A stretch of DNA of 64,000 nucleotides from Oscillospiraceae bacterium (GTDB taxonomy: Bacteria; Bacillota; Clostridia; Oscillospirales; Oscillospiraceae). The notes under the pieces were generated by a model. That model saw nothing but the letters and a program-made list of their open reading frames with translations, ran no database searches and was not told the origin of the DNA. Numbering within the stretch: the stretch's first letter is position 1; each line of letters starts with the position of its first letter. The position numbers were made by a program, and so were the translations under genes. Shown here piece by piece: positions 6,760 to 33,812 of this stretch. The DNA is taken from assembly GCA_009777235.1 (NCBI GenBank), contig WRMH01000014.1, positions 1 to 64,000 of the forward strand, read 5' to 3'.

Positions 6760-9264
6760 TTAACCATGCTCCCATACATATATCGAGACGCGGCTTTGTA
6801 TGATTTCGGCAGCTTCGCGGGCAGTATTGCGTCCGTTGAAAAAATCCTCGGCACTCTCGGAAATGATGTCGGCAAACGCTCCGTAGAGAAGCCAGTCATC
6901 GGAAGTTGGCGTCAAAGAGTTGACGAGAGCTATTATTTTATCGGCATCTTCTTGGGTGATAGTAGGGGCTAATAGCTCCCGCGTCACGGGGTGGCGGGGT
7001 ATGACATCTGACGATTCGTCCATGCACCGGATTAAAAGCTCATCAAAAGCGGCCTTGTTAGATGGAAAATTGTAAAAAGAGAGCTGAGATATTTGAAAAT
7101 CCGCGTCAAGCAAAGACCGCAAAAACTGCCATGCTCCCGCTTTGTTTTTAGAAACCGTGGTTATGCCGATGCTTTGATAGGCGGTAAAACCGTGACGGCT
7201 TCCGCTTCCCGTGGGAAAACCTTTGAAAACAATCTCCCCGCCAAGTTGGAATTTCAGATTAACATAGGTACCGATGTATAGTGGCATCTTTACATCTTGT
7301 ACAAGCTGATGCCCTGTGGCAAAAGGGTTGTTAAACTCGTTAAATGGCTCTTGCTGGTATATAGTGAGCCGCTCATCGTCGGTTAAGTATTCATCCACAA
7401 ACTCCAGCATTTCTATAAAGGTATCCGTGTTAAACATTACCTTGCCTTCGCCCCAGTTTATAAATTCCTCTATATTATATGCTATCATGCGCAGCAAAAA
7501 CGAGATCATAGACCCCGGAGTCGTATCATAGCGCGGATAGCTTTGACCGAGCGGCATATCGGCGTCCGGGTGAGCGTCAATTATGGCTTTAAGATCATTT
7601 ATAGTCCAGTTAGTGTCCGAACCCAAAACAGACGGATGCCCGGCCAAGGTGTTTATTTCAAAGTCCGGAAATATCCTGTAGAGCTTCCCGTCTGTTTCAG
7701 CCGCTTTAAAAACGCCGGTCACTAAGTCAGCTCGGCTAAGCTCGGGATCGGAGTCAATAAATGGATAAAGGTCCTCCAATAGCCCGTTTGCTGCGTAGCG
7801 GTCATACGGCAAACGAACCATATACAAAATATCCGGTATGTTTCCGGTGATAATGTCGGTGACGAGCCTGTCAATCCCTCCGTAATCGTAATAATTTCCA
7901 GAGACATATGCGTAATCTGTGACTTCTATGTGATAGTCGGCGTTCGTGCCGTTAAACCACGCGACCCTGTCTATCACGGCGTCGCTTATAAAGACGCCGG
8001 CAAGTGTGAGCACGGTTTTTTCGGAAATCTCCGATATGGGAGTTTTGGTAAGGATAAGCAAGCGCGATGTTTGCGCCCCGCCTGCGGCGGCATACGAGCG
8101 CAGATTGCAAATAATGCGCCCGTCGGGAAGCACAACAACGCTTTCCGCCCTTTCTGCGCCAGTGTTAATATTACTGCCAAGCCAGTCGAGCAGTTTTATG
8201 TGTTCTCCCGCTGCTGCCATTATTCCGTAAAGACTGCCGATTGTGCAAAGAAAAGCGTCAAACCCGCCGCTGCCGGGATATGCAAGCATACTCAGCGTTT
8301 CGGAGGGAACTTCCGTCACATCGCCGGAGAAATCCTCCGTATCGCCATCGGAATCCTCTTCACGCTCAACAACGCGCAAGCCATATGTGCCTGTGCCGTC
8401 GCCGTAGGCGTCCGTACTCAAATATGCCACGTTTCCGTTTGCCATGCGGACTATGTCGGCAGACCTCGGGAAGTAAGGGATTATATCATATAGCATATTG
8501 CCGTCGCTGCCCATGACATAGATTACCTCGCCATAGACAAAGGTCGCCATTATATCCGTAAAACTTGCAAAAAGGTAGATGTTTCCGTCCCCGCCTATGG
8601 CAAACCCTCTGGGAGCAAAACCCTGTTGCTCTTCAAAAATGCCGCCGATGTCAATAGACGACAGATAAGAGCCGGTTTTGTCGAGTTTGCGCAAGGCAGA
8701 GCCAAAATCAAGGCTTATAATGCCATAATCCCCCGCGTTGGGGCTTGCCGCGTCAAAGCCCGCAGGCAACTCATAACGGAAAAACTCCCAATGCTCCAAA
8801 ACCCACAGATTGCCCTCGTCGTCGGCGGACATTGCGGTGATTAGGACTCCGCCAAAGGCATCTTCAGGCATTTGGACGGGAGGTATATAGCCGGACAGTT
8901 CCTCAAAGCCTGTGCCGTCAATATTTATCGCGCAAATTTTTGACGAGGAAGTATATTCGGCGAGAAAAGTCCCTGAGCCGCTGTCATGATGGTTGGAAAC
9001 GAAGTATAGCCTGCCGTCTATGTAAATAACGTCTTGAATATCGCTTATGCCGTCCGGCAGCGAAAGTTCTTGCGGAACATAGACATAACCCTCTGTGTCG
9101 TCGCTGACGTTGAAAGCGGCAACCGGGCTTTCTGTGTCACCGTTGTTGTCGCCAATATCGTTTTTGCACCCCGACGTCAACGTAAAAAGCAACGCTACCG
9201 CCAACACCGCCGCCATGAGCCGCGTTGCCGTGTTTTTAACTGCCGCCACACGCCGTCCTGTCAT
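6760..9264 (-). CDS. Large lipoprotein: ABC sugar-type solute-binding domain with N-terminal extension
   Basis: The 834-residue protein has a lipoprotein signal (LAVALLFTLTSGC, Cys about 33). The N-terminal half (about 60-420) is rich in repeats such as DEGNLWVLEHW and GDGNIYLFASF, suggesting a beta-propeller-like sensor. The C-terminal half (about 425-800) resembles extracellular solute-binding protein family 1 (DILYMVRLPYDRYAANGLLEDL, then KNKAGAWQFLRSLL). It should capture a carbohydrate or similar ligand at the cell surface. No ABC permease or ATPase genes lie beside it, which is unusual. Confidence 0.75.
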   Translation of the reverse strand: MTGRRVAAVKNTATRLMAAVLAVALLFTLTSGCKNDIGDNNGDTESPVAAFNVSDDTEGYVYVPQELSLPDGISDIQDVIYIDGRLYFVSNHHDSGSGTFLAEYTSSSKICAINIDGTGFEELSGYIPPVQMPEDAFGGVLITAMSADDEGNLWVLEHWEFFRYELPAGFDAASPNAGDYGIISLDFGSALRKLDKTGSYLSSIDIGGIFEEQQGFAPRGFAIGGDGNIYLFASFTDIMATFVYGEVIYVMGSDGNMLYDIIPYFPRSADIVRMANGNVAYLSTDAYGDGTGTYGLRVVEREEDSDGDTEDFSGDVTEVPSETLSMLAYPGSGGFDAFLCTIGSLYGIMAAAGEHIKLLDWLGSNINTGAERAESVVVLPDGRIICNLRSYAAAGGAQTSRLLILTKTPISEISEKTVLTLAGVFISDAVIDRVAWFNGTNADYHIEVTDYAYVSGNYYDYGGIDRLVTDIITGNIPDILYMVRLPYDRYAANGLLEDLYPFIDSDPELSRADLVTGVFKAAETDGKLYRIFPDFEINTLAGHPSVLGSDTNWTINDLKAIIDAHPDADMPLGQSYPRYDTTPGSMISFLLRMIAYNIEEFINWGEGKVMFNTDTFIEMLEFVDEYLTDDERLTIYQQEPFNEFNNPFATGHQLVQDVKMPLYIGTYVNLKFQLGGEIVFKGFPTGSGSRHGFTAYQSIGITTVSKNKAGAWQFLRSLLDADFQISQLSFYNFPSNKAAFDELLIRCMDESSDVIPRHPVTRELLAPTITQEDADKIIALVNSLTPTSDDWLLYGAFADIISESAEDFFNGRNTAREAAEIIQSRVSIYVWEHG

Positions 9265-9878: not shown

Positions 9879-10938
9879 TGTAAGAGTACAATACATATTG
9901 GACAGCGAGTAGAAAAAAAATAGTGAAAGAGAGGTCTTCATAGCTTATAGTTTAGTTACCACACAAAACTGACCGAAAGGAAGTACCCCTCTCTCATGAA
10001 CAGTGTAACACAAGATATGAAATACAGGCAATCCCTCATGAAGTATTCTCAAAGACATGGAGTGTCAAAAGCATCGCGAAAGTACAATAAGAGCAGGTCG
10101 TATATATATTTCTGGCTGTCGCGCTATGATGGCAGCATTGAATCTCTGGAGTGCCGGTCACGGCGACCTAACAGTCACCCTAATCAACATACTGACGAAG
10201 AGTTGAAGTTGATTAAGGATATGCGGCGGCGTAATCCTGAATTGGGAATGATTGAGCTTTGGCATAGATTACGGAAACGAAATTATACACGTCGCCCTGA
10301 AAGCTTGTTTAGAGTTATGAGGAAAATGGGGATGTTTCCTGAAAGAAAGCCAAAGAAACCGTATGTTCCAAAACCGTATGAGCAAATGCAGTATCCGGGG
10401 CAAAGAGTTCAGATAGACGTGAAACATGTCCCCAAGGCTTGTCTGACAACTGCCCTTCACGGACAGAAGCTCTATCAGTATACGGCTATTGATGAATACT
10501 CCCGATTGCGGTATCTTGAAGCGTTTGAAGAAGCAAGCACTTATTCATCAGCTACATTTCTTATTAACGCACTGGCATTCTTTCAAAAACATGGATTTCG
10601 TGTAGAGTGTGTTCAGACAGATAACGGCTTTGAGTTCACCAACCGCTTGCACAATCAAGCTAAAGATTCATTAACCCTCTTTGAGCGTACCGCAAACCGC
10701 GTTTCTGTGAAACACAAACTTATTCGGCCGTATACTCCCAGACACAACGGAAAAGTTGAGCGCAGCCATCGTGAGGATAATAAGAGATTCTATGCTTCAC
10801 ACACATTTTTCTCTTTTGATGACTTTAGAAAGCAACTCCTTGTTCACATGAAACGTTCTAACAATATACCGATGAGACCTCTTCTTTGGTATTCACCTCT
10901 TGAATACCTCACTGTCCAATATGTTTGACAATCCTACA
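9879..10938 (+). mobile_element. IS481-like insertion sequence
   Basis: The element is about 1.06 kb with imperfect 27-bp terminal inverted repeats at 9879-9905 and 10912-10938. The inner 13 bases (CTGTCCAATATGT) match exactly and both outer ends read TGTA when viewed inward. The transposase stop codon lies inside the right repeat. I see no convincing target duplication. It sits at the left end of the cassette-like array, 22 bases from the last cassette gene. Confidence 0.8.
9996..10928 (+). CDS. DDE transposase, IS481-like
   Basis: The 310-residue protein has an N-terminal helix-turn-helix (KYSQRHGVSKASRKYNKSRS) and an rve-type DDE catalytic core. The acidic residues are visible in VQIDVKH, CVQTDNGFEF and HNGKVERSHRED. 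It cuts and joins the terminal repeats that flank it. GAAAGGAAG lies 5' of ATG 9996. The frame is intact, so the element may be active. Confidence 0.9.
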   Translation: MNSVTQDMKYRQSLMKYSQRHGVSKASRKYNKSRSYIYFWLSRYDGSIESLECRSRRPNSHPNQHTDEELKLIKDMRRRNPELGMIELWHRLRKRNYTRRPESLFRVMRKMGMFPERKPKKPYVPKPYEQMQYPGQRVQIDVKHVPKACLTTALHGQKLYQYTAIDEYSRLRYLEAFEEASTYSSATFLINALAFFQKHGFRVECVQTDNGFEFTNRLHNQAKDSLTLFERTANRVSVKHKLIRPYTPRHNGKVERSHREDNKRFYASHTFFSFDDFRKQLLVHMKRSNNIPMRPLLWYSPLEYLTVQYV

Positions 10939-10960
10939 CGACTGTTTTTGGTCTATTTCC

Positions 10961-11740
10961 TTATTCTATCGCACAAAATTTGAGATTAAAGAGTTTTACC
11001 GCATTATCGCATAAAATTAAGTGTTTATTGAAGTCATCAATATCTAACGAATTAACTAGGTCAATATGGGATTTTATGCTACACATTCCATAGTCGGAAC
11101 CGAAAATAATTCTATGAGCATCTTTTTCTGCAATATGGTTTAACGAGCTTCGCGTTTTCTCAAGATGATTTGCTTCATATGCCAAGCTCGAAATGTCATA
11201 GAAGATATTTGGATATTCCGATGTCAAACGATAACATAAGTCAATATCCGGCCACCAAAGATGACAAATTATAATACGCAAAGCAGAGTGTTCTTCTGCT
11301 ATTTTTGCAAAATACTTTGGATGATTGTACTGTGCGTTGTCCCAACCTGTATGTACAGCTAAAGGCACATCATGTTTTTTGCATAGTTTGTATACTTCAT
11401 CCAATCTTGAATCGTCCATATAGAAAGATTCATGTCCGGGATACAGCTTACAGGCAACCATCAACCCTCTTTCAAGGTAACTGTCTATCTGTACCATGCG
11501 GGCTTCAAAATCTATTATTGGGCTAATACCGCCCATGACAAAAATATTCCCTGTGTCAGAAAACAGCTCGACGCATTCTTTCGGCGTTCCGATAGCGCTG
11601 GACAGTTCGGAATCTGCTATAACGATAGCTCCATCTACCCCTGATATGACAAGGTCGCGTAAAAGTCGTCCCTTCTTATCATTAAGGGTCAGTAGCGTAT
11701 CTTCGCAACAAGGTAAATGAAGGTGCGCATCAACAATCAT
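10961..11740 (-). CDS. TIM-barrel amidohydrolase family protein
   Basis: The 259-residue protein has the metal-dependent hydrolase signature: MIVDAHLHLP, then PLAVHTGWDN, IICHLWWPDI and FGSDYGMCS. Members hydrolyse or decarboxylate small cyclic or amide substrates; the substrate is not predictable here. It is the last gene of the minus-strand cassette-like array. The attC-like site at 11821-11897 lies before its start. Its own downstream site, if any, was lost near the IS. Confidence 0.8.
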   Translation of the reverse strand: MIVDAHLHLPCCEDTLLTLNDKKGRLLRDLVISGVDGAIVIADSELSSAIGTPKECVELFSDTGNIFVMGGISPIIDFEARMVQIDSYLERGLMVACKLYPGHESFYMDDSRLDEVYKLCKKHDVPLAVHTGWDNAQYNHPKYFAKIAEEHSALRIIICHLWWPDIDLCYRLTSEYPNIFYDISSLAYEANHLEKTRSSLNHIAEKDAHRIIFGSDYGMCSIKSHIDLVNSLDIDDFNKHLILCDNAVKLFNLKFCAIE

Positions 11741-11820
11741 CTACATAAATCCTCCTGATAGTATTTCTTGTATAATGTAAAAAAATAGTTCTAAAAATAC
11801 CCTCGCAATAGGGTTATGGG

Positions 11821-11897
11821 ACATAACGTCCGGCGGCTTGGTGAAGTGGCAAACGAGGTGCGCTGAGACTCGAACTATTTCTATGGATATGTTAAGT
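11821..11897 (-). repeat. attC-like site following the PH-domain gene
   Basis: On the minus strand the site opens with ACTTAAC, a perfect match to the R'' consensus RYYYAAC, and closes with GTTATGT. The inner arm GGCGGCTTGGTGAAGTGGC (11832-11850, plus strand) matches the arm of the site at 19608-19738. CCCTATTGCG follows the closing box, as after the other elements. The opposite arm is degenerate. Confidence 0.6.
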
Positions 11898-11921
11898 TTA
11901 TCCGATAGGGCAATCAAATAG

Positions 11922-12800
11922 TCACTTCGGGGAAAACGCTTCTATCATTTCACTAAATACCGCTCTTGTTGTCTCGCCATTACGAAAACTTATAAAAATA
12001 TCTCCGCCGCGACTACGCTCAATCCTTATTGTTGGAGAGGAATTTGTTCGGACAAAAAGCACATGAGAATCATAACGACTCGATTGAAAATGCCCCTTCA
12101 ATGTGCCGCCGAAACCGCCATATCCATTTGCCCTGTGCCCTGAGTCACCGTCACGCATATCTCTCATGCTTTGCTCGATAAGCTCTATTGAATCAATACT
12201 GTCAAATCCAATGTTCAAGCCGTACATGGCTTGTATTCGTATACCGTCATCGCTAACATTAACGGCAGGCTCCATCTCTCCGTATGCAATCATAATCCCA
12301 ATCACAAGGAGCGGTATTCCGGCCAATAGAATAATCACCAATTTAACACATTTCGACATAGGCTTAACATCAGCGGTTATCTCTATGTTCTCATTTTTCG
12401 TTTTTAACTCTTCAAAAAAGCCTTGCCAATCTTTTGGAGAAATAATAACGGTATCGCTAAAGCTACCTTTCTTGAACTTAATCTCAATACGGTCGAGCGA
12501 TGGAGCGGGTGACGATATTGGATTTCTTGTTTTGCTGGCACTTATGATTGCGGTGTAGGGTATTTTTATACCTTTGCCAAGCCCGCATTTTATGCGCAAT
12601 CCGTCTTCGTCAAATTGATAATATGTCCTTAGCCAAATTGGGATAAAGAGAAATACTGTTAACGGCGTAAAAACAATAGCTACCACCCAAGCTCCAAGTC
12701 CGCCCCCCGTGAATATAGATACGATAGCCCAGATATTTCCAAGTGTAAAACCTGCAAAGATGAGAAGAATCCACCAATCATATTTTGACCTAAACAGCAC
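11922..12800 (-). CDS. PH-domain-like membrane protein
   Basis: The 292-residue protein has two N-terminal membrane segments (about 8-32 and 36-58), a soluble bacterial-PH-like region (YYQFDEDGLRIKCGLGKGIKIPYTAI), and another hydrophobic segment near 150-172. A second PH-like half follows with a Gly-rich loop (RANGYGGFGG). Function is unknown; bPH proteins often act in envelope stress. It is a single-gene module flanked by repeat elements on both sides. Confidence 0.6.
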   Translation of the reverse strand: MLFRSKYDWWILLIFAGFTLGNIWAIVSIFTGGGLGAWVVAIVFTPLTVFLFIPIWLRTYYQFDEDGLRIKCGLGKGIKIPYTAIISASKTRNPISSPAPSLDRIEIKFKKGSFSDTVIISPKDWQGFFEELKTKNENIEITADVKPMSKCVKLVIILLAGIPLLVIGIMIAYGEMEPAVNVSDDGIRIQAMYGLNIGFDSIDSIELIEQSMRDMRDGDSGHRANGYGGFGGTLKGHFQSSRYDSHVLFVRTNSSPTIRIERSRGGDIFISFRNGETTRAVFSEMIEAFSPK

Positions 12801-12826
12801 AGCAAGTCTCCTCCAAATTATTCCGC

Positions 12827-12863
12827 CACAGTGGGGCTAATTTCGCATAACCGCTTGTTATGC
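12827..12863 (-). repeat. Compact attC-like element after the DUF2442 gene
   Basis: On the minus strand GCATAAC, the spacer AAGCG and GTTATGC form a compact palindrome (12845-12863). A conserved tail follows, reading CCCCACTGTGG. It shares AACAAGCGG and GCGAAATT with the element at 18961. Confidence 0.5.
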
Positions 12864-12998
12864 GATGTATGTCACGGACGGCATCTCTCTCCGCACTCTA
12901 CCATTTTATTAGCAAATTATCAAAAGGAAGTAACGCCATTCCGAGATAAGGGATTGCCTTTAAAAGTTGCAGACCACCAAGGGTGATGTGAATAATAC

Positions 12999-13253
12999 TT
13001 AACGAATTGCCGCTTGAGTAGGTACAGAATAATCGTAAAGCTCGTGCGGGGCAATGTCTTGACCTCCCGCCCATTCGATTGTGTTACCGGCAATACGCAC
13101 TGTATTGAAAACCTCGATATTCCTTAGTTTCCCAAACCAATCTCCACTGATATATGGCATTACATCAAAAATTCTAGCCTCCCCCGTGTCAAAGGTAACT
13201 ATCACTTTGTAATCAGCCAGCGGAGTAACGTCAATCGCTCTTGGTTGTAGCAT
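12999..13253 (-). CDS. DUF2442 domain protein
   Basis: The 84-residue DUF2442 protein has VIVTFDTGEARIFDVMPYI and TIEWAGGQDIAPHELYD. The family is small, basic and usually paired with DUF4160, as here, 11 bases downstream of it. The pair has been suspected to be a toxin-antitoxin-like module, but I know of no demonstrated activity. GATAGGAGGT precedes the start. A second copy of the pair lies at 14598-15116. Confidence 0.85.
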   Translation of the reverse strand: MLQPRAIDVTPLADYKVIVTFDTGEARIFDVMPYISGDWFGKLRNIEVFNTVRIAGNTIEWAGGQDIAPHELYDYSVPTQAAIR

Positions 13254-13264
13254 GGCAGTACCTC

Positions 13265-13531
13265 CTATCTCAACGGATCGATTCTAAAGTATTCCCGACC
13301 TTCGCTTAATAACTTCCAATTTGCTTCAAGATCTTCTTTATGTATTTCTGCCCATGCGGTTACCAGCTTTAGTTTCTTTAGAGGAATGCTCCCCTCCAGT
13401 ATCTCACCTTCAAAACTAATTGCAACTTCTTGCCCTTGGTATTCTGCATGAAAATGTGGAATATGGTGCTTGCCTCCAATTTCGCGATACATGGTAATTA
13501 TAATTCCATAGAAAACGCTCAGTGTTGGCAT
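13265..13531 (-). CDS. DUF4160 domain protein
   Basis: The 88 residues carry the DUF4160 hallmarks GIIITMYREIGGKHHIPHFHAEY and WAEIHKEDLEANWKLL. It is the upstream partner of the DUF2442 gene. Start ATG 13531 follows GAGGAGG. The HHxPHFHA motif suggests a metal or nucleic-acid contact, though function is unproven. Confidence 0.85.
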   Translation of the reverse strand: MPTLSVFYGIIITMYREIGGKHHIPHFHAEYQGQEVAISFEGEILEGSIPLKKLKLVTAWAEIHKEDLEANWKLLSEGREYFRIDPLR

Positions 13532-13613
13532 TACTAAAACCTCCTCAACATTCTAAAACGAAGCTGTTTTATTTTAGATTAAGGTATTTTTCAAGATTTG
13601 TCAATAACTTCAC

Positions 13614-13652
13614 ACCGCAGTGGGGTAGATGTCGCATACCCTGATGTTAAAA
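13614..13652 (-). repeat. Compact attC-like element after the GNAT gene
   Basis: On the minus strand a GTTAAAA-complement and GTATGCGACAT flank a 5-base spacer. CCCCACTGCGGTG follows, the tail conserved across the array. Confidence 0.45.
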
Positions 13653-13658
13653 ATGCCC

Positions 13659-14207
13659 TTAATTGCGTAAAGACAGCCAATGCTCTTTAATGATTCCATA
13701 ACGGGCAACATCACGGAAAACACCTTTGATTTTTACTCCTTGTACGCTAACTCCCTCAAAGGTCATCCCACACTTTTGCATTACTTTGCCCGATGCTTCA
13801 TTGCCAATGTAATGAAACGCCTCAACGCGGTTCAAGTCAAGATTTTCAAAGCATAGCCTCATTATGGCTGATAAAACTTCAGTCATATAACCTTTGTTCC
13901 AATATTCGCGATTCAAAACATACCCAAAACCGGTTTTATCATGTTCAGGCTCTATCCTAATATCAATCGCTCCAATACATTTTTTCGTTTCTTTCAGTTC
14001 TATCGCCCAAACGCCGGGTTTCGACCAATGAAAGTATATTATCCCTGTCACAACTTCATCAACCGTCTTAGCACCTGCCCAATCTAAATACCTAACTGTA
14101 TCCTCATCAGCGGCATATTCAAGCATATCCGGAGCATCATCTTTTCTGGCCTTTCTTAGAATAAGCCGTTCTGTTTCCAATCTTTCATTGTCATACAGTA
14201 TTTCCAT
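13659..14207 (-). CDS. GNAT acetyltransferase, RimJ/RimL-like
   Basis: The protein is about 182 residues from ATG 14207 and has the typical opening LETERLILRKARKDDA, the acetyl-CoA region GFGYVLNREYWNKGYMTEVLSAIM, and the closing NEASGKVMQKCGMTFEGV. It should transfer acetyl from acetyl-CoA to an amine; the substrate is unknown. Its 5' end overlaps the truncated nucleotidyltransferase frame, which suggests a deletion joined the two. The start is not well supported by a ribosome-binding site. Confidence 0.8.
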   Translation of the reverse strand: MEILYDNERLETERLILRKARKDDAPDMLEYAADEDTVRYLDWAGAKTVDEVVTGIIYFHWSKPGVWAIELKETKKCIGAIDIRIEPEHDKTGFGYVLNREYWNKGYMTEVLSAIMRLCFENLDLNRVEAFHYIGNEASGKVMQKCGMTFEGVSVQGVKIKGVFRDVARYGIIKEHWLSLRN

Positions 14208-14422
14208 ATAATTTTCGACCACTCAAAACACCCCCTTTTTACAAAATGATTGCATCGATTTCTCACCACGCTATCAAAAACAATAGCGATGTCTATATCA
14301 CTGTCATTATGCGGGTTGCCATTGACATAGGAGCCAAAGATAATTATTTGCTTTGGATTATAGAGTTGCCGCACCTTATCTGTGTATTTTGTGGCTATTT
14401 CCCTAACTTCTCTTTTATCCAA
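14156..14422 (-). pseudogene. Truncated MNT-type nucleotidyltransferase
   Basis: The N-terminal half of a small antitoxin-type nucleotidyltransferase is recognisable: IIIFGSYVNGNPHNDSDIDIAIVFD with the GS...DxD signature. After that the frame runs into unrelated residues and into the GNAT gene. A TTG at 14422 behind GGAGAGG is the likely start. The missing C-terminal half indicates a deletion between this gene and its neighbour. Confidence 0.7.
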
Positions 14423-14519
14423 CAGCAGTTTTCCTCTCCATATTACAGACATTCCGCTTTGTACAATTCTAAGCACTTTTCAAAGAACTGTCAATAAATT
14501 TGAACCGCAAAACTTGCGC

Positions 14520-14557
14520 CGCAGTAGAGTAACGTGCGCCAAACCGTTTGCATTGTG
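14520..14557 (-). repeat. Compact attC-like element after the nucleotidyltransferase remnant's upstream cassette
   Basis: The element lies between the DUF2442 stop (14598) and the next module. On the minus strand it reads GGCACAATGCAAACGGTTTG, then CTCTACTGCGG. It is the most degenerate copy. Confidence 0.4.
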
Positions 14558-14597
14558 CCGTTTAATCGGACTAAATCCACTTACTATTAACTAATGC

Positions 14598-14846
14598 TTA
14601 CTCGATAACGTCTAAGCCTTTATCATATAGCGTATGCGGGCAGTAATCCTGCCCTGTCGCCCATTCGATTTCCCCTCCGGTCACCATAACTTTGCAAAAT
14701 AAAGCATTATCTTTCAACACACTATAGAACGGATGACTCAAGTTTGGGGCAAAGTCGAAAACCTTCTTTTCACCGTTAGAAAATAACAGCAAAAGATTGT
14801 AATCTTTCCATGCAGTTGCTTCTATCAGCTTGGGATAGCTTTTCAT
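14598..14846 (-). CDS. DUF2442 domain protein (second copy)
   Basis: The 82-residue protein has NLLLLFSNGEKKVFDFAPNL and GEIEWATGQDYCPHTLYD, the same family as the gene at 12999-13253. It follows a frameshifted DUF4160 gene directly (2-base gap), reproducing the pair arrangement. Confidence 0.85.
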   Translation of the reverse strand: MKSYPKLIEATAWKDYNLLLLFSNGEKKVFDFAPNLSHPFYSVLKDNALFCKVMVTGGEIEWATGQDYCPHTLYDKGLDVIE

Positions 14847-14848
14847 AA

Positions 14849-15116
14849 CTACTCCAACCCCTTTATCTTAAAAAATTGGTCATCTGTCTGCATAATGTCC
14901 CAGAGTGCCGACAATTCATCTCTATGAATGTCAGCCCGAGCAACAATGTATTTTGTTTGCTTTATGGGGAATTTACCGGATAAAGGATTTCCATCTAAAT
15001 CAAAAGATGCTTCATATTCGCCATATTTTGCGGCTCAAATGCGGTATGTGGTGTTGTTCGTCATCGTTAAAATACATACGAACAACAATCCCATAAAAAT
15101 GTGAAATAATCGGCAA
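14849..15116 (-). pseudogene. Frameshifted DUF4160 gene
   Basis: From a TTG start at 15116 (behind GGAGGTGG) the frame reads LPIISHFYGIVVRMYFNDD and EQHHIPHLS. It then needs a one-base shift near 15025-15035 to continue AKYGEYEASFDLDGN and on to IHRDELSALWDIMQ, ending at the stop 14849-14851. The shift makes a stop in the original frame. Both halves are clearly DUF4160, so this is a recent single-base lesion or a sequencing error. Confidence 0.8.
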
Positions 15117-15328
15117 ATCTACCACCTCCCTAAATATTGCATTTATCGCTAAATACTAAACTATCAAACAAAAGCACTCGGCATACAATATGCAATTAAA
15201 AGAATAGCACTGCAAAAAACTGAAAAGCACCAATATTACAATGAAACCATGTGCGTATCATAAACTGACTGTATTGCATCATTCACCTCAGTATAGGCTT
15301 TTTTCAAGGATATGTCAACAAAACCACA

Positions 15329-15365
15329 CCGCAGTAGAGTCAATGTCACATACCGTTTATTATGT
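15329..15365 (-). repeat. Compact attC-like element after the nitroreductase gene
   Basis: On the minus strand the element reads GGCACATAATAAACGGTATG then TGACAT and CTCTACTGCGGTG. It lies 17 bases beyond the nitroreductase stop. Confidence 0.5.
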
Positions 15366-15381
15366 GCCGGGTTGGCGTTTT

Positions 15382-16008
15382 TTACCATTTATTATAATGA
15401 ATTTTATCCTTTATTTTATGTTTTATTTGCTCAGGGCTTTTCACCTTGGTTAAAGGATAACCAATAGCCAAATAACACGGCATGAAATAATTTTTCGGGT
15501 GATTTATTGTTTCCAATATGTGTTGAGTTTCTTTTTCAAATGGTATTCTAAGTGCACAACCTAATTTTTCAGCAGTTGCCGCAAGTAAAATATTTTCTAT
15601 ACAACACCAAATAGAAGCAAAACTATTTAATGCACTTAAATTTTTTGGTTTTAATAACGGCTCTGTTTGTTTTAAAAACGGTAATATTAAACAACCGGAT
15701 TGAATAAGCATACTAAATTGTTTTGGTATTGCATCTTTATATGTTTCCTTCTGCAAAGGAGCATTTACCTTCCATGAATTTATTATAAAATCAACTCTTT
15801 TTTCGGAAATCGTCTTAGGGATTGGTTTTATAAGTTTCTCAATCATTTCTCTTTCTGTAATTACCACAAACTCCCAATTTCGTAAATGGTCATTCGTAGG
15901 AGCTTTTAACCCCGCAGATAAAATCCGTTCTATAGTTTTTTTATCCACTTTTTTATCAGAAAAATCTCTTATTGTTTTTCTTGATTTTACAACATCATAA
16001 AAATCCAT
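15382..16008 (-). CDS. Nitroreductase family protein
   Basis: The 208-residue flavin protein has the nitroreductase start MDFYDVVKSRKTIRDFSDKKV, LKAPTNDHLRNWEFVVIT, and the C-terminal LAIGYPLTK. Such enzymes use FMN and NAD(P)H to reduce nitro compounds, quinones or enoates. AAGGAG precedes ATG 16008. The low G+C and AT-rich codon use differ from the neighbouring core genes, consistent with a captured cassette. Confidence 0.9.
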   Translation of the reverse strand: MDFYDVVKSRKTIRDFSDKKVDKKTIERILSAGLKAPTNDHLRNWEFVVITEREMIEKLIKPIPKTISEKRVDFIINSWKVNAPLQKETYKDAIPKQFSMLIQSGCLILPFLKQTEPLLKPKNLSALNSFASIWCCIENILLAATAEKLGCALRIPFEKETQHILETINHPKNYFMPCYLAIGYPLTKVKSPEQIKHKIKDKIHYNKW

Positions 16009-16078
16009 CTAAATCTCCTTGTTTATAATAAAATCAAAACAGTATTACGTTGTCAAATCTTTATTTTATTTAATTCCA

Positions 16079-16234
16079 TTATTTTATCCAATACTCAGCG
16101 TCTTCTCTCAAATATGGAAATTTTACCATTGCAAGCCATTTTGACACATTATAATTATTCAGTCCCTCGAGTAAATCTTCTATATCATTTTCTTGCCAAT
16201 TCCTTAGAATTAATCTATTTGTTTCAAATTCCAT
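16079..16234 (-). pseudogene. 5' fragment of a GNAT acetyltransferase
   Basis: Only about 51 residues remain: MEFETNRLILRNWQENDIEDL, then NVSKWLAMVKFPY, ending at YWIK. This is the first quarter of a RimJ/RimL-like acetyltransferase, cut by a stop. It has a good GGTGGG site. It lies upstream of the nitroreductase in the same module. Confidence 0.7.
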
Positions 16235-16329
16235 ATTCCCACCTCTTATTACTGTATTCCAATACTTTGTTTTAATCAAGTACCTTCATAAATTTTTTAT
16301 TATTTTTGAGCATATTTGGATTTTATTTC

Positions 16330-16352
16330 GCCTAACGGGGGGCGGGTATACG
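16330..16352 (-). repeat. Compact attC-like element after the flavodoxin gene
   Basis: On the minus strand CGTATAC is followed by CCGCCCCCC and a canonical GTTAGGC box, then GAAAT. The flank CCGGGCAAACG is shared with the element at 18961. Confidence 0.5.
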
Positions 16353-16381
16353 ACGTTTGCCCGGACAAGTATAATTTCATA

Positions 16382-16963
16382 CTAACGTTCTGCTAATTTG
16401 TTCAGAAGCTGTACCGCAAAACCTTTAGCACCACTTACAGAGTTTTCGGTTTGGAACGAAGCTAAATTATCTTCATCTCTCACAGAATACATACCTAAAT
16501 ATTTCAGGTTAGAGTGTTCACATAGACGCTTAATGCCTGTTTCAAATGGCTCCGCTCCATATTCAGCGTCATATCCGTGAGTGGCCACGATTGCGACGCT
16601 CTTTCCTTGCCATAAAGAGCCTTTCGCTTTTCCATAAAACTTGTTTAAGCCGTAATGTCGGTCTAGAAGCGCTTTCATTGGCGCAGTACAGTACCATGTG
16701 TAAATAGGTGTTGCAAAAACAACACAGTCACTATCTATTATTACATTCATAATATGGGTGACATCATCATTCTGCACACAACCATAATATCCATCAACGT
16801 CCTGACAAGCATAACACCCTTTGCATGGGAGGATGTTCTTATCTGCTAAAGCAATATACTCAACTTTGCAATCACGATTCAAAAGTTCGCCAATCAGCGG
16901 TTTTAGCAATTCCGCAGTGTTACCATTTAGCCTCGGACTACCCATAAGAACGCAAAATTTCAT
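16382..16963 (-). CDS. Flavodoxin-fold NAD(P)H-dependent oxidoreductase
   Basis: The 193 residues show MKFCVLMGSPRLNGNTAELL (FMN phosphate loop), a Cys-rich loop (LPCKGCYACQD) and FATPIYTWYCTAPMKALLDR. It is an iron-sulfur-flavoprotein-like or NADPH-dependent FMN reductase-type enzyme. GGAGG precedes ATG 16963. It is a single-gene module between two repeat elements. Confidence 0.88.
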   Translation of the reverse strand: MKFCVLMGSPRLNGNTAELLKPLIGELLNRDCKVEYIALADKNILPCKGCYACQDVDGYYGCVQNDDVTHIMNVIIDSDCVVFATPIYTWYCTAPMKALLDRHYGLNKFYGKAKGSLWQGKSVAIVATHGYDAEYGAEPFETGIKRLCEHSNLKYLGMYSVRDEDNLASFQTENSVSGAKGFAVQLLNKLAER

Positions 16964-17066
16964 AATTCGACCTCCACGGTTTGAACAAAGTGTTTCCTCT
17001 TCTACAAAGGACTAGGGTAATTTCAATTGATTGCCAAAAAATACGCACCGCAGTAGGGTGAATGTC

Positions 17067-17242
17067 GCCTAACGGGCGGCGGGTAGACGCTGTGGCGCTA
17101 AGGTGGCGCTTGCGCCGCCGAAGCGGCATGGTGAAGTGGCGGAGTGAGCGCGTGTTAACTTGAGTTTTCACAAACGGTCAAGGAGAGCAGAAGACTTTAG
17201 GTTTCCACCCCGACCGACATTTCGCTAAGCTGCTTGTTATGT
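17067..17242 (-). repeat. Full-length attC-like site after the metallophosphatase gene
   Basis: On the minus strand the site opens with ACATAAC (R''-like, 17236-17242) and closes with GTTAGGC (17067-17073), a perfect R' box. A 22-bp arm (17214-17235) pairs imperfectly (16 of 22) with 17121-17142. Between the inner arm and GTTAGGC is an extra GC-rich hairpin region (GGCGCTTGCGCC). The segment at 17180-17240 is nearly identical to 19690-19738. Confidence 0.7.
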
Positions 17243-17272
17243 GAAGTTTGGCGGATTTCTGTTTTTATATAT

Positions 17273-18211
17273 TTAATCGTTTTTCTTATCACACCATGCT
17301 TCATAGGCAGAACACCAAGTTTCCTTTTTAAAAGGACGTGTATTATCTTGAATATCAGTTGCATACCGCTCTGCGAATTCTAAGAATGGATCTGCCTGTG
17401 CCCTAGCTGTTTCCAGTTCTTTTGTGATGATGCCGGACCATACCTTATTTTTCTTTGAATAATCAGATTTTCGCGTATAATTCAATGTTTCATTTACATC
17501 ATAGGCAACTCTTCTTAATGTCGCTTTATAAGAGTTTTCAGTAATTTCTAATATACCATATGACGCATTGCAATTAAAATCAAGCGGTAAACCACAAGAG
17601 CCGGGATTTAAAAGCAGTTTCCCTTCGTATTCCCAGCATAAAGGGATATGAGTATGTCCAAAAACATAAACTCCCGATTCCATAAATGAAATAAGTTTAT
17701 GCAACTCTATATCATTACATAATATATTCTCTGAATGTGTCCCATATGATAAACAATCAAACTTTTTTTCATCCATGCCTCTAACAAAATACTGCGGATT
17801 TAAAAAACAAGGACTTGTATCAAGAAAATACCGTTGAGGTTTGTGAAAAATAAATACAGGAGGGAAATTATCTTTTTTTATTATTATTTCTTGGGGAAGA
17901 CTAAATAAATAGCTCCGATTCGAATCAAATAATGTCTGATACATCCATGATATTACTCCAAACTGTCCCACCGGCCATTTTTCTCGCCCAATTGAAGATA
18001 AAGGTGTAAGAGCTTCTTCTTCATTTCCGCTAACAGTAAAACAAGATTCCATTGAACGGATACGACCAACAACTTCATTTGGGTATCCCAATCCCACACA
18101 ATAATCCCCTAAAAGAATAAATTGATTAACATGGTTTTTTCTTGCGTCATGAATAACAGCTTCTAAAGCAGGTAAGTTGCCATGTATATCCGAAATTACT
18201 GCATATCTCAT
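17273..18211 (-). CDS. Calcineurin-like metallophosphoesterase
   Basis: The 312-residue protein carries all metallophosphatase blocks: ISDIHGNLPALEAV, ILLGDYCVGLGYP, SGNEEEAL, and FGHTHIPLCWEYEGKLLLNPG. It should hydrolyse a phosphodiester with two bound metals; the substrate is unknown (YfcE/ApaH-like folds act on nucleotides). AAAGGAG lies before ATG 18211. The gene ends 31 bases before a full attC-like element. Confidence 0.9.
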   Translation of the reverse strand: MRYAVISDIHGNLPALEAVIHDARKNHVNQFILLGDYCVGLGYPNEVVGRIRSMESCFTVSGNEEEALTPLSSIGREKWPVGQFGVISWMYQTLFDSNRSYLFSLPQEIIIKKDNFPPVFIFHKPQRYFLDTSPCFLNPQYFVRGMDEKKFDCLSYGTHSENILCNDIELHKLISFMESGVYVFGHTHIPLCWEYEGKLLLNPGSCGLPLDFNCNASYGILEITENSYKATLRRVAYDVNETLNYTRKSDYSKKNKVWSGIITKELETARAQADPFLEFAERYATDIQDNTRPFKKETWCSAYEAWCDKKND

Positions 18212-18290
18212 ATTATAAATCTCCTTTTACTAAGGCTATCACTCTTGCTAATAATCCTCTTGGCGTTTCTGCCAGTGTAAGCCAAATTTC

Positions 18291-18310
18291 GCATAACGTT
18301 CTGGTTGTAT
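18291..18310 (-). repeat. Compact attC-like element after the P-loop kinase gene
   Basis: On the minus strand the element reads GTATACAACCAGAAC then GTTATGC and GAAAT. Its flank CGGGCACAAC resembles that of the elements at 16330 and 18961. Confidence 0.45.
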
Positions 18311-18348
18311 ACGAAGTTGTGCCCGTACTTTTAATTTACTTAATCAAT

Positions 18349-18870
18349 TTATTTAAACGTTTCAAATACCTTATTTAAAATCATTTCTGCACATTCCTCT
18401 GGTGTATTTTTGTCAGAATAAACAATAAAATCCAGTGTAACCGTTTTATCGATTATTTTATCCTGTTCGTGAGATTGAAATTCACCTCTGTCACCACGTT
18501 TCAAATTACGTTGCCTACATATTTCCAAAGGACAAACGACATTTACAGTTAACAGAGGATTATTATCAATGATATTTATCATCTTCTGATAGTGATTAGG
18601 TAATTCGGAAGTTTCAAATAAAAGGCAGTCAATAATTACGTTTTTTCCCATATCAGATAATAATTTTGCAAAATGGTACATATCAATAAACATCTCGAAC
18701 TCATATTTACTATAATTATTTAGTCTATGTTTTTCACCAACCATATCCATTAAAATGTCACTTCCTATTAAATAGAAAAATTCATCCGCTGTATCTTGAA
18801 TTCTCCTTGCAATTGATGTTTTACCCGTACTTGTAACACCATTTAAATACACAATTTTACCCTTTTTCAT
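18349..18870 (-). CDS. P-loop kinase, chloramphenicol-phosphotransferase-like
   Basis: The 173-residue NTPase opens with KIVYLNGVTSTGKTSIARRI, a Walker A motif of the CPT/AAA_33 type. CPLEICRQRNLKRGDRGEFQS, an arginine-rich lid, follows. Family members phosphorylate small molecules such as chloramphenicol or nucleosides. A resistance role is possible but not proven. GGGGGAACATAA precedes ATG 18870. Confidence 0.75.
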   Translation of the reverse strand: MKKGKIVYLNGVTSTGKTSIARRIQDTADEFFYLIGSDILMDMVGEKHRLNNYSKYEFEMFIDMYHFAKLLSDMGKNVIIDCLLFETSELPNHYQKMINIIDNNPLLTVNVVCPLEICRQRNLKRGDRGEFQSHEQDKIIDKTVTLDFIVYSDKNTPEECAEMILNKVFETFK

Positions 18871-18960
18871 TTATGTTCCCCCTTAATGATTCTATCAAAA
18901 TTTATGCTATTGTATCAAGTATATTTTTTATTATTTTCAAACAATTTAGGGCACAATTTC

Positions 18961-18979
18961 GCTAAGCCGCTTGTTATCT
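18961..18979 (-). repeat. Compact attC-like element after the GNAT gene
   Basis: On the minus strand AGATAACAAGCGGCTTAGC is followed by GAAATTGTGCCC. It retains the R''/L''-like half of a full site but ends in GCTTAGC rather than a GTT box. Confidence 0.5.
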
Positions 18980-19007
18980 GCCGTTTGCCCGGATATAGAT
19001 GGTATTC

Positions 19008-19517
19008 TTATCGAGCATTAGTAACAATCTCAATATAAGTCCGTGTATCATTTACTCTTTCAATTATTCCTCCATTACTTAGAGCCACCTGCACAGAAGC
19101 TGTGTTAAAGTTTTGGATTGTAATTAAAAGACGGTCTATGTCCATTTTCTTAGCTTCATAAATTAGTGATTTTAAAAGAAGTTTGCCATAACCGCGGCTT
19201 CGATACGAAGGAGCAATTGCATAACCAATATGTCCACCTTCTTCTTTTAACTTTTCTGTCAGTCGGTGGCGGAGTTTCCCCATACCTACAGGTTTTCCAC
19301 CTATATATAACCAATATGTATTTTGCGGAACCATCCAATCTTCTAACCCTATTCCGTTTGCCATATTATCGCTGTGAATTAGCCACTCTTTATACTCGTC
19401 ATAAGAAAGACCGTTGCAACCATTTACAAGCCCATTCTCATCCTTTGGTATTTCTTGAAGCATATTATAAATATCTATTCCATCAGTAACCGACAGCTTC
19501 TTTAGTTCAATATCCAT
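19008..19517 (-). CDS. GNAT acetyltransferase
   Basis: The 169-residue protein has the acetyl-CoA site HIGYAIAPSYRSRGYGKLLLKSLI and the C-terminal QNFNTASVQVALSNGGIIERV. It is related to predicted acetyltransferases that start with MDIELKKLSVTDG. The substrate is unknown. AGGAGAGAG precedes ATG 19517. Acetyltransferases are common cargo of integron cassettes. Confidence 0.9.
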   Translation of the reverse strand: MDIELKKLSVTDGIDIYNMLQEIPKDENGLVNGCNGLSYDEYKEWLIHSDNMANGIGLEDWMVPQNTYWLYIGGKPVGMGKLRHRLTEKLKEEGGHIGYAIAPSYRSRGYGKLLLKSLIYEAKKMDIDRLLITIQNFNTASVQVALSNGGIIERVNDTRTYIEIVTNAR

Positions 19518-19607
19518 ACTCTCTCCTATCCAAAATACTAAATTCTTTCATCGCAAAAATACCAGAAGACGTTTTACTCAGTATACCACCGCGCTAGGGC
19601 ATATGGC

Positions 19608-19738
19608 AGATAACGGGGGGCGGGTTGGCGAAGTGGCGGATGGGGCGCGCCGCACCTTAGAATACCATAAGCGGTCAAGGGTGCAGAAGGCTTTAGGTTT
19701 CCACTCCGACCGCCATTTCGCTAAACCGCCTGTTATGT
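19608..19738 (-). repeat. Full-length attC-like site after the Imm5-like gene
   Basis: This is the best preserved site (131 bp). The minus strand opens with ACATAAC (19732-19738) and ends with GTTATCT (19608-19614). Two 21-base arms (19619-19639 and 19710-19730) are complementary at 18 of 21 positions, containing GGCGAAGTGGCGG and GCGAAATGGCGG. The loop is about 70 bases. This is the R''-L''-L'-R' geometry of integron attC sites, oriented as expected for a cassette whose gene reads leftward. Confidence 0.72.
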
Positions 19739-19766
19739 GCCGTATGCCCGGATGTAGGTAATACTC

Positions 19767-20366
19767 TTATACTGTGCTTGCACTCTGCTCTTTCTTATCT
19801 CTCAATAGCTTTTCTTTATTTGGGGCATCTTCTTTTAACAGAAATTGCGCCCAAGGCATTAGAACGGCATCGGCATTTTCTTCCCAATACCGTAATCGTT
19901 TATATAGTCTGTCACATTCTTCTGCAACGACCGTTTGTGCGTTATCTTTGCCGTGTTCGTATGATAATGCTGTCAACGCATAAATCGGTCCACCAATAGC
20001 ATGAGTTTCAACATGAACTGTTGCAATTACTTGACCGATAGCACGAGCAATAGAGCAAAAAACAATATCATCAGCTATTTCGGTTGCGGCATTGTGTACG
20101 GCATGAATGGCTTTTTTCGCAAAAGGCATTTTCACTTCACCACGTGCCCAGGCTCTACACGCTTTTACGGCTTCGCGTGGTCTGTGTTCAGTAGGATATT
20201 TAGATTCAAATTTATCTACCAACTCCTCAGCATATTCTAGAGCCCACAATACAAGCGTTCTTTTTCTCTGCTTTTCAATGAGAGATAGCAGTGGCTGTAA
20301 ACAATCGCTTTCTCGATTATATAATACTCTTTTTATTTTTATTCGTCTGCACCTCCACGAAAACAT
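19767..20366 (-). CDS. Imm5-like putative immunity protein
   Basis: The 199-residue helical protein has RTLVLWALEYAEELVDKFE, RPREAVKACRAWARGEVKM and AKKAIHAVHNAATEIADD. These are hallmarks of the 'putative immunity protein' Imm5-like family, proposed to protect against polymorphic toxins. ATG 20366 is used, but a strong GGAGGTG site inside the 5' end (about 20346) lacks a good start codon after it, so the true N terminus is uncertain. Confidence 0.7.
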   Translation of the reverse strand: MFSWRCRRIKIKRVLYNRESDCLQPLLSLIEKQRKRTLVLWALEYAEELVDKFESKYPTEHRPREAVKACRAWARGEVKMPFAKKAIHAVHNAATEIADDIVFCSIARAIGQVIATVHVETHAIGGPIYALTALSYEHGKDNAQTVVAEECDRLYKRLRYWEENADAVLMPWAQFLLKEDAPNKEKLLRDKKEQSASTV

Positions 20367-20410
20367 CTGCGGCGTTAATGATATAATTTATAACCACTCT
20401 CAATACTCCA

Positions 20411-20448
20411 CCGCAGTAGGGCATATGTCGCATAACTACTTATTACAC
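20411..20448 (-). repeat. Compact attC-like element, right end of the array
   Basis: On the minus strand GTGTAATAAGTAGTTATGC is followed by GACATATGCCCTACTGCGG. It directly follows the stop of a truncated coding remnant (20450-20527). It is the rightmost element I can find. Confidence 0.5.
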
Positions 20449-20449
20449 G

Positions 20450-20527
20450 CTATTCTTCAGCCAATATACGCCATCCAAAATTATCGCCGTCTTTTCCCCG
20501 TAAAGCCTTGAAATACACCGCTCCGCA
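20450..20527 (-). pseudogene. 3' remnant of a lost cassette gene
   Basis: Reading leftward, an open stretch ends AVYFKALRGKDGD, NFGWRILAEE, stop. It has no start and is cut off by a stop codon at its upstream side. It sits just before an attC-like element exactly where other array genes end, so it is probably the tail of a deleted cassette gene. The gap to 20665 also holds two copies of TATTGAAAATRCGCCAT, 20529-20585. Confidence 0.4.
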
Positions 20528-20665
20528 TTATTTTTCTATTGAAAATACGCCATAACTTTTAGCGTAATTTTATTGAAAATGCGCCATGCTTTCTATTTGT
20601 TTTGCGTAGCATTTGGTTGCGGGTGTTCTTCGGCAGTGTTCACGTTCTTTTACATGCAACTGAGC

Positions 20666-33482: not shown

Positions 33483-33812
33483 TCCCTGAGCAAGTCGGGA
33501 CTTGCTCAGGGACGAGGTTGTCTTTCCCGCGGTACCACCCTGATTGCGGCCAAAAGCAAGGCCGCCGCTCAACGGAGTTATAACAAATAACCCCTGCCCC
33601 TGTGACGGTGGGCATCCGTACGCTCCTACTTGAAATATGCGCTACGCATTATGCGTTATGCACGAACCTTTTCAAAGCATCCGCTCGGGAGTGTATTTAC
33701 ATATCCGTCAGCACCTGCTTGCACCAACCGCAGTATCTCTAACGCCGGCGTCACGCCGAACATGCTAAGTGAGGATATCTTTCTCTCCGTCATGGCGTTT
33801 GTTAAAACTTAA
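33483..33812 (-). promoter_or_regulatory. T-box leader upstream of the lyase gene
   Basis: The minus strand contains the T-box AGGGTGGTACCGCGG (33527-33541). A strong terminator hairpin follows (33483-33495 with 33500-33512, CCCTGAGCAAGT). Stem-I-like sequence covers about 33600-33812, with a GGTTGGTGCAAGC distal part. A candidate specifier is TAC (complement of 33693-33695) just before ACTCCCGAGC, which would mean tRNA-Tyr. T-boxes raise expression when the matching tRNA is uncharged. Confidence 0.85.

Follow-up and report, generated by a model that had tools for sequence, protein, structure and literature searches.

A decayed, integrase-less cassette array in an Oscillospiraceae genome and its probable origin in an integron-type system whose recombinase lacks the I2 insertion

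The first 64,000 nucleotides of contig WRMH01000014.1 from an Oscillospiraceae bacterium (assembly GCA_009777235.1; hereafter the window) hold, at positions 10961-20450, a decayed, integrase-less gene cassette array that is CALIN-like (cluster of attC sites lacking an integrase). Considered as a whole, the array is probably best explained as the residue of an integron-type array belonging to a recombinase lineage without the I2-bearing insertion of standard integron integrases (IntI), with the integrase lost and the sites partly decayed. A preceding reading of the sequence alone had described about ten minus-strand modules with related elements, and this has been confirmed: the 14 minus-strand open reading frames (ORFs) of at least 70 aa in 10900-20450 (overlapping shorter ORFs dropped) group into eleven modules (A-K), between which lie ten repeated elements, namely two full attC-like hairpins, one partial copy and seven short forms (Table 1). 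The three element copies which that reading had taken to be full have been recovered by our covariance model R1, the last of them as a partial one. CALINs have been defined as two or more attC sites, spaced by under 4 kb, with no integrase (PMC9668308, PMC9024848). In the window R1 gives two strong sites and one weak site at distances of 2.5 kb and 5.3 kb, so that only the first pair lies within 4 kb, unless the short sites are counted.

The model R1 has been built from 25 elements, one from the window, nine from contig C16 of the same genome and 15 from genus-mates, and the matches to it answer the earlier proposal that an attC model be searched. Outside its training set it has also recognized a site in the array of another genome of the genus (L074, 31.7 bits, E 2e-6). 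A search of the window with Rfam has returned no attC-like match, only a T-box and a chance miRNA match; Rfam is not known to hold an attC family. The R''-L''-L'-R' hairpin of integron sites is recognized by R1 and by folding, within the window in three of ten sites. The bottom strand of 19605-19739 reaches -31.3 kcal/mol (z -3.5, with 0/200 shuffles as good), and its top strand -22.9 kcal/mol (z -1.5). The expectation that the elements fold better than shuffled sequence has held for this full element and for one short one, while two short ones, 18945-18995 (z +1.5) and 20405-20450 (z +1.4), have folded no better. The seven short borders consist of an R''-like box with an R'-like box close behind and have no L''/L' hairpin; their half-boxes are inverted around a spacer varying from 5 to 11 nt, and the mobility of these seven elements is doubtful. 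Many R' boxes of the window are followed by a shared leader, CCCTACTGCGGTG, and a 26-nt pattern of R' plus leader (at most 3 mismatches) has 11 matches in the whole genome, all on one strand, and none in the control.

A probable trace of cassette movement has been found in the cassette ends. If cassettes are circles opened at G^TT, each should begin, at its 5' end, with a stretch that pairs with its own R'' box and not with that of its neighbour. For 28 hand-placed cassettes from six arrays (L074, L079, L069, L121, L119 and L127), the own match amounts to 8.8 of 11 free positions, compared with 5.9 when starts are permuted within arrays (p<=5e-5), and the start of the next cassette, with R' of the same site, scores only 5.4 (22 comparisons); one further L121 pair, which scores 8/11 in a chain finder, has been left out of this test. 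Taken array by array, p is 0.017 for L074 (n=5), 0.0003 for L079 (7), 0.04 for L069 (4), 0.007 for L121 (5), 0.17 for L119 (3) and 0.04 for L127 (4). Cassettes with type-1 sites (n=20) give a mean of 6.8 against 5.9 with a fixed box (p 0.0013); an automatic choice on contig C16 takes wrong AAC triplets and leaves 12 pairs without signal (p 0.45). The ten cassettes scored in the window reach, in order, 8, 9, 1, 9, 7, 3, 2, 2, 8 and 3 of 11, by which half of them would be intact and half decayed. Such self-matching would be the footprint of cassette-circle recombination at G^TT.

The window array is not isolated. Its genome, a metagenome-assembled genome (MAG) of 2.63 Mb in 58 contigs and about 92% complete, carries a second, better preserved array on C16, and its contigs C12 and C15 hold single sites. 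Among 119 relatives R1 has matched four, with 21 matches in the window genome and, in three genus-mates, 15 in G001, 16 in G003 and 1 in G014 (counts that include weaker opposite-strand echoes), and blastn has matched seven, three of these through stretches of 19-25 nt in other genera. A scan of named genomes with the recombinases found at array heads has yielded four loci: L078, the same record as L074, which is an Oscillospiraceae MAG locus of the same genus as the window; L079, from a Lachnospiraceae MAG; L081, a G003 record; and L080. We take the MAGs of L074 and L079 to be from termite guts, as read off their isolate names. In L074 and L079 an intact recombinase gene of 287 aa (int) is followed by an attI-like region and then by cassettes with hairpin sites, all codirectional, and the L079 product is 82% identical to that of L078. 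Relics of int that keep the 3' end stand at further array heads, of 199 aa in L069 (5' end cut), 45 aa in L071 and 23 aa in L067, and thus flank arrays on three contigs of two genus-mates (L067 and L069 in G003, L071 in G001). Gene order is not conserved, and cassettes common to arrays of different genomes have different neighbours, which agrees with the module shuffling expected by the sequence-only reading. Among 102 ORFs of eleven arrays there are 15 similar pairs at E<=1e-5, some of them within one array. One cassette is common to C16 3150-3613 and L074 11313-11764 (81.5% over 466 nt) and another, its site included, to C16 11142-12179 and L071 7072-8066 (70.5% over 1048 nt); the ORFs neighbouring either shared stretch have no partner. 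The Firmicute-like character of the genome, also proposed from the letters alone, is in keeping with intact arrays in Oscillospiraceae and Lachnospiraceae MAGs and with a T-box leader elsewhere in the window (33505-33802, 95.6 bits, Rfam). Tandem repeats close to AATTGCAGAAGCAAGTGT have been seen in the loop region of two L079 attC sites (11739-12038 and 13539-13803).

The head of the window array resembles the sequence immediately past the stop codon of int in L069 (blastn 75% over 76 nt, E 1.5e-8), and is further backed by a five-way alignment with L074, L079, L069 and L071 and by a pattern match at 20411-20436, with the putative crossover at the GTT beginning at 20436. Two direct repeats similar to GGCGTATTTTCAATAG are common to all five heads, as is a simple site similar to GGCGTCTATnnnGTAGTTATRTGC, and attI1 is likewise described as two direct repeats plus a simple site (PMC8946536). 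By this comparison the five regions are attI-like, and their binding by the recombinase is putative. The attI-like region adjoins an intact integrase gene in L074 and L079 and a relic in L069 and L071, and stands by itself in the window. As the window retains the attI repeats without int, the integrase would have been lost from the head while attI stayed. No int sequence has been detected in the window (best tblastn E 0.093), and no match to this int lineage elsewhere in the genome at its completeness of about 92%. Of the earlier alternatives, that the array was captured or residual and that its integrase lies elsewhere or was lost, the residual array and the loss from the head have thus been retained. 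A recently captured array has been rejected, given that the attI-like head is kept and int is gone.

The recombinase linked to the intact arrays is related to IntI and yet distinct from it. It contains PF00589 and ends in an IntI-like C-terminal SPLDxL, but lies below the cut-off both of the NCBIfam integron model TIGR02249 (208 bits, cut-off 265) and of the XerA model (212 bits, cut-off 220), and its best solved-structure matches are XerA (5hxy), then IntI4 (2a3v). Aligned with 2a3v, it has 26 residues where IntI has 69, i.e., 43 fewer, including the stretch of the I2 helix, so that the additional domain by which surveys define IntI (PMC9668308, PMC2426708) is missing. Across 25 proteins the corresponding inter-motif stretch measures 58-63 residues in a group of 18 rows, 63-65 in four Xer-like proteins and 101 in three IntI, and a predicted structure from a four-sequence alignment (pLDDT 73.9, pTM 0.50) is devoid of a helix from residue 195 to residue 210. 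The 18 rows are separated from IntI (100/99) and from the Xer-like proteins (99/97) in an unrooted tree, where their own grouping is modestly supported (88/87); the tree being unrooted, it does not discriminate between a loss of I2 and its original absence. Between the intact int genes of L074 and L079, dN is 0.143 and dS 1.645, from which purifying selection on int follows. The I2 helix has been described as needed for cassette capture, where it docks the extrahelical bases (PMC7790495). The integron-type interpretation of the sequence-only reading has therefore been kept for the integrase-less cassette array and has to be amended for its enzyme, as the recombinase of the relatives is no standard IntI and is without the IntI-specific domain. 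Recombinases beside IS91-family transposases (L075, L122) belong to the same 18-row group and likewise miss the insertion; they differ in adjoining a transposase, and an array has not been noted there, where no chain-finder search was made. The IS91-associated L075 has been rejected as the cognate enzyme (34% identity, adjoining a transposase).

The attC-like sites have an anatomy of their own. Their L arms have equal lengths of 21/21 in 19 of 25 type-1 sites and of 22/21 in the other six, and in the 18 of 26 type-1 folds that are resolved a single-base bulge never occurs on the L stem's 3' side, where one fold has a 4-nt bulge. In a Vibrio control, four of ten sites are resolved as a long hairpin, all with G, T and T bulges on that side; the extrahelical bases of an integron attC bottom-strand stem are thus absent from type-1 sites. 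The L stems of type-2 sites covary on both sides, as judged by eye in L074 and L079 (GGTATACG/CGTATACC, GGTAGCTG/CAGCTACC and GGTAACTG/CAGTTACC). Within the R stem a near-constant A in the cassette start stands against a G in the matched box, which produces a T.G wobble on the bottom strand and an A.C mismatch on the top strand. It is present in 18/20 type-1 cassettes, in 19/19 from L074, L079, L069 and L119 together, in 2/5 of L121 and in 0/4 of L127, and has been absent from the four chained pairs of the Vibrio control. A generic hairpin scan has proved too strict, with one site in the Vibrio control and two in the reversed control. Compared with integrons and CALINs, the arrays are alike in an attI-like head with direct repeats, in codirectional cassettes each ending in a hairpin of the R''-L''-L'-R' type, in G^TT cassette ends, in varied accessory genes and in the occurrence of integrase-less arrays; they are unlike in the missing insertion (58 vs 101 residues between motifs), in type-1 stems without extrahelical bases and in the orientation of int, which points towards the cassettes here and away from them in the Vibrio control.

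This anatomy bears on a reading which we regard as rather unlikely, namely that cassettes move as double-stranded DNA by Xer-like action on the short palindromic R''/R' boxes, in the manner of dif, with the hairpin as a by-product. The resemblance of int to XerA and other Xer proteins in domain layout, length and solved-structure relatives speaks for it, as do the short sites, which resemble a pair of inverted half-sites separated by 5-11 nt where dif has a 6-bp spacer (a comparison made by eye). It leaves unexplained that long L''/L' stems have been kept with equal arms in 19/25 sites, that the type-2 L stems change together on both sides, and that the conserved wobble renders the two strands unequal; moreover, int occurs beside cassette arrays whose sites are long hairpins, unlike XerA, XerC and XerD with their single dif site.

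The combination of recombinase and array extends beyond the genus. In a class-wide sample, relatives of int at E<=1e-60 occur in 20/391 genomes (16/223 genera). Nine of these 20 genomes have provided 11 regions, two of which end too soon past int, leaving nine loci with recombinases of 38-44% identity. A strict rule that requires self-match and wobble, learned on other loci, finds 34 pairs downstream of these int genes (L139 2, L140 10, L141 7, L142 4, L145 4, L147 5, L149 1, L143 1, L144 0), compared with a mean of 3.6 and a maximum of 7 in 20 shuffles and none in the 0.9-1.3 kb upstream, and in six of the nine loci the first pair lies 66-95 nt past the int stop. The class-mate G1076 holds four int relatives; among the three loci read on its contig C2 (L142, L143 and L144), only L142, the closest, has a cassette-like array. 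Plasmid records with int relatives under 60% identity number 519. On a Pontibacter kalidii plasmid (L121, 6960-11822) six self-matching cassettes in a row, bearing short attC-like hairpins, come after the recombinase, apparently a complete I2-less integron, and on a Chryseobacterium plasmid (L119) three self-matching cassettes follow int. In L119 a 209-nt hairpin-rich element occurs three times (90-98%) by cassette boundaries, at 6874-7082, 8969-9177 and 11350-11558. The unguided chain finder has recovered four cassettes of L069 and the six of L121, with chance chains elsewhere; its opposite-strand count provides no control because the pairs are palindromic. By this finder no clear array is present in the other Bacteroidota relatives L118, L120, L125, L126 and L128, nor any array at L127. 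No array has been found downstream of int in L080 (a Bacteroidales MAG, 60% identity) or with the 72%-identical int of a viral-database contig (L082, 45-4101), in which int breaks off against three further tyrosine recombinases encoded on the other strand. A protein search for int across the order has given 0/394 and is uninformative, and a search for the int family has matched 3/400, two of which (G005, G551) group with the IS91-associated rows in the tree.

This distribution, together with the linkage, counts against a second alternative, in which a standard IntI with I2 outside the assemblies built the arrays and the I2-less recombinase adjoins them without relation to them or is a resident enzyme of the Xer type. 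The attC R box and spacer do resemble standard ones (TAAC..GGGCGTTA, as in the Vibrio control), and assemblies do break at arrays, with contig ends reached in L067, L068, L069 and L071. However, TIGR02249 exceeds its cut-off in none of the 19 genomes of the genus, so that a standard IntI has not been found there and has been rejected for the window genome; int stands directly before attI in L074 and L079, with relics at three more array heads; the same gene order recurs on the Bacteroidota plasmid L121 and in six class-mate loci; and the type-1 stems are without the bulges seen in Vibrio sites. We consider this alternative improbable. It is hardly credible that unrelated genes are here simply separated by terminators or common palindromic repeats and that the elements are no recombination sites: several short window sites do fold no better than shuffles and terminator-like matches are at chance (5 vs 6.6), yet plain terminators and repetitive extragenic palindromic (REP) repeats are rejected by the single element orientation, the exact cassette-end matching, the sharing of cassettes among arrays and the recombinase linkage.

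Several observations weigh against an integron-type origin with an I2-less enzyme. Only five of the ten window cassettes self-match well (the rest score 1, 3, 2, 2 and 3). The bottom strand is the lower in energy in 20/25 type-1 sites (means -28.8 vs -26.0), 7/9 type-2 sites and 6/9 class-mate sites, a modest bias, and RNAalifold finds two-sided change in only 1/24 type-1 pairs. Two of the five resolved type-2 sites (of nine) carry a single G bulge near the spacer that might be an extrahelical base. For the class-mates, the strict rule finds 11 pairs in reversed sequence, as many as forward in L139 (2) and L142 (4), and no array downstream of int in L143 and L144. Most array genomes are MAGs, so misbinning is possible, though the arrays recur in several.

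The defence clusters of Bacteroidales known as recombinase-associated acquired interbacterial defence (rAID) have been defined by a recombinase, co-oriented orphan immunity genes and conserved intergenic motifs, in an article whose main text does not use the word 'integron' (PMC12247911). They are like the present arrays in a recombinase of the same 18-row group, in co-oriented short genes and in conserved intergenic motifs, and unlike them in a cargo of immunity genes, in a right box ATTA instead of GTTA and in a wobble count of 0/4 (L127). The window array is not such a cluster, its cargo being mixed with one Imm5-like gene only. On a Parabacteroides distasonis plasmid (L127, 10920-15416), which we take to be a rAID, an immunity-gene cluster follows a recombinase of that group, and the four hand-placed cassettes self-match at 7.5/11 vs 5.2, which suggests that rAID clusters are built in the way of integrons.

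Read as an integron-type array with an I2-less enzyme, the system would store single genes as cassettes. A tyrosine recombinase of a lineage beside standard IntI, without the I2-bearing insertion, would be encoded immediately upstream of attI by a gene that reads towards the cassettes; it would join a cassette circle to attI through a G^TT crossover, and with every circle its R''-L''-L'-R' hairpin would arrive. In place of extrahelical bases, the strands may be distinguished by the T.G wobble of the R stem, by L-stem wobbles and by an uneven spacer. Recombination of these sites by int, a single-stranded substrate and a choice of strand set by the wobble are our inferences. In the window, the integrase gene would have been lost upstream of the surviving attI-like site and the sites partly decayed to short forms. 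The modules, the sites, the attI-like head, the self-match, the presence of int by arrays, the missing insertion and the purifying selection are read from sequence comparison, and the bolder proposal, a lineage of I2-less integrons whose attC sites have a distinct design, is based on linkage, anatomy and cassette-end statistics.

The array is bounded at its distal end by an insertion sequence (IS) with imperfect inverted ends, which may have cut it. Some window modules have a good sigma-70-type promoter; promoter-like sites are near chance over the whole array region (40 vs 32.2, sd 6.4).

Table 1. Features of the cassette array and its borders in the window; self-match gives the positions of 11 at which a cassette start pairs with its own R'' box.
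Feature	Position	Strand	Evidence and remarks
attI-like head	20411..20609	-	direct repeats ATGGCGCATTTTCAATA and ATGGCGTATTTTCAATAG; simple site ending TAGTTATGCGAC
Cassette A: Imm5-like putative immunity protein	19767..20366	-	Pfam Imm5_like E 2.7e-38
Full attC-like site A/B	19605..19739	- (recombining strand expected +)	R1 140.6 bits, E 3.8e-37; training row
Cassette B: GNAT acetyltransferase	19008..19517	-	Pfam; start vs own R'' 9/11
Short site B/C: R''-L'' half, then R'-like box	18955..18998	-	nhmmer E 5e-4 for 18955-18979
Cassette C: chloramphenicol-phosphotransferase-like P-loop kinase	18349..18870	-	Pfam CPT E 7e-25
Short site C/D	18259..18306	-	repeat comparison
Cassette D: metallophosphoesterase	17273..18211	-	Pfam; self-match 9/11
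Full attC-like site D/E, longer terminal structure	17059..17243	-	R1 106.1 bits, E 2.1e-27 (17107-17243; non-training); nhmmer
Cassette E: NADPH-dependent FMN reductase	16382..16963	-	Pfam FMN_red; self-match 7/11
Short site E/F	16325..16365	-	repeat comparison
Cassette F: 66-aa ORF 16079-16279 (without Pfam family) and nitroreductase 15382-16008	15382..16279	-	ORF list, Pfam
Short site F/G, then TTGACA-17-TATACT promoter-like pair at 15318-15290	15329..15369	-	repeat comparison, pattern
Cassette G: DUF2442	14598..14846	-	intact DUF4160 partner of at least 60 aa not in ORF list
Short degenerate site G/H	14509..14562	-	repeat comparison
Cassette H: nucleotidyltransferase 14156-14476 and GNAT 13659-14222	13659..14476	-	Pfam
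Short degenerate site H/I	13608..13650	-	repeat comparison, pattern
Cassette I: DUF4160 and DUF2442	12999..13531	-	Pfam; self-match 8/11
Short site I/J: 9-bp palindrome (CGCATAACC..TTATGCG on +)	12826..12870	-	fold z -4.8 (12835-12870)
Cassette J: bacterial PH domain protein	11922..12800	-	Pfam bPH_4
Partial attC-like site J/K	11818..11897	-	R1 47.7 bits, E 6.3e-11 (11818-11975; non-training); nhmmer E 3e-10 (11821-11881)
Cassette K: amidohydrolase, final module ahead of IS	10961..11740	-	Pfam Amidohydro_2
IS with rve-type transposase (9996-10928)	9879..10938	+	inverted arms 31 nt, 77%; Pfam rve

Beyond the window, one may postulate a second branch of integrons in Clostridia and Bacteroidota, whose integrase has lost or never had I2 and whose attC sites are without extrahelical bases, a proposal that in our judgement could equally well stand or fall. 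Under it, cassette capture would be independent of I2, integrons may predate I2, many CALINs may stem from integrases invisible to surveys because these define IntI by the missing domain, and rAID would be a specialised form. No paper on I2-less integrons has been found in the open literature; with subscription papers and most preprints outside its scope, this search is a weak sign of novelty. As the recombinase is without the IntI-specific domain, a standard survey would count the loci with an intact int, too, among the CALINs, and a survey of complete genomes gives one complete integron in Firmicutes (PMC9024848); an I2-less branch, if true, would explain part of the CALINs of Firmicutes. 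A working array system with such an integrase would change the account of the necessity of I2, and the I2-less arrays would be a natural test of what I2 and the extrahelical bases do. It would also offer a mechanism for the gain of genes by rAID clusters, described by the rAID authors as an area of active research (PMC12247911).

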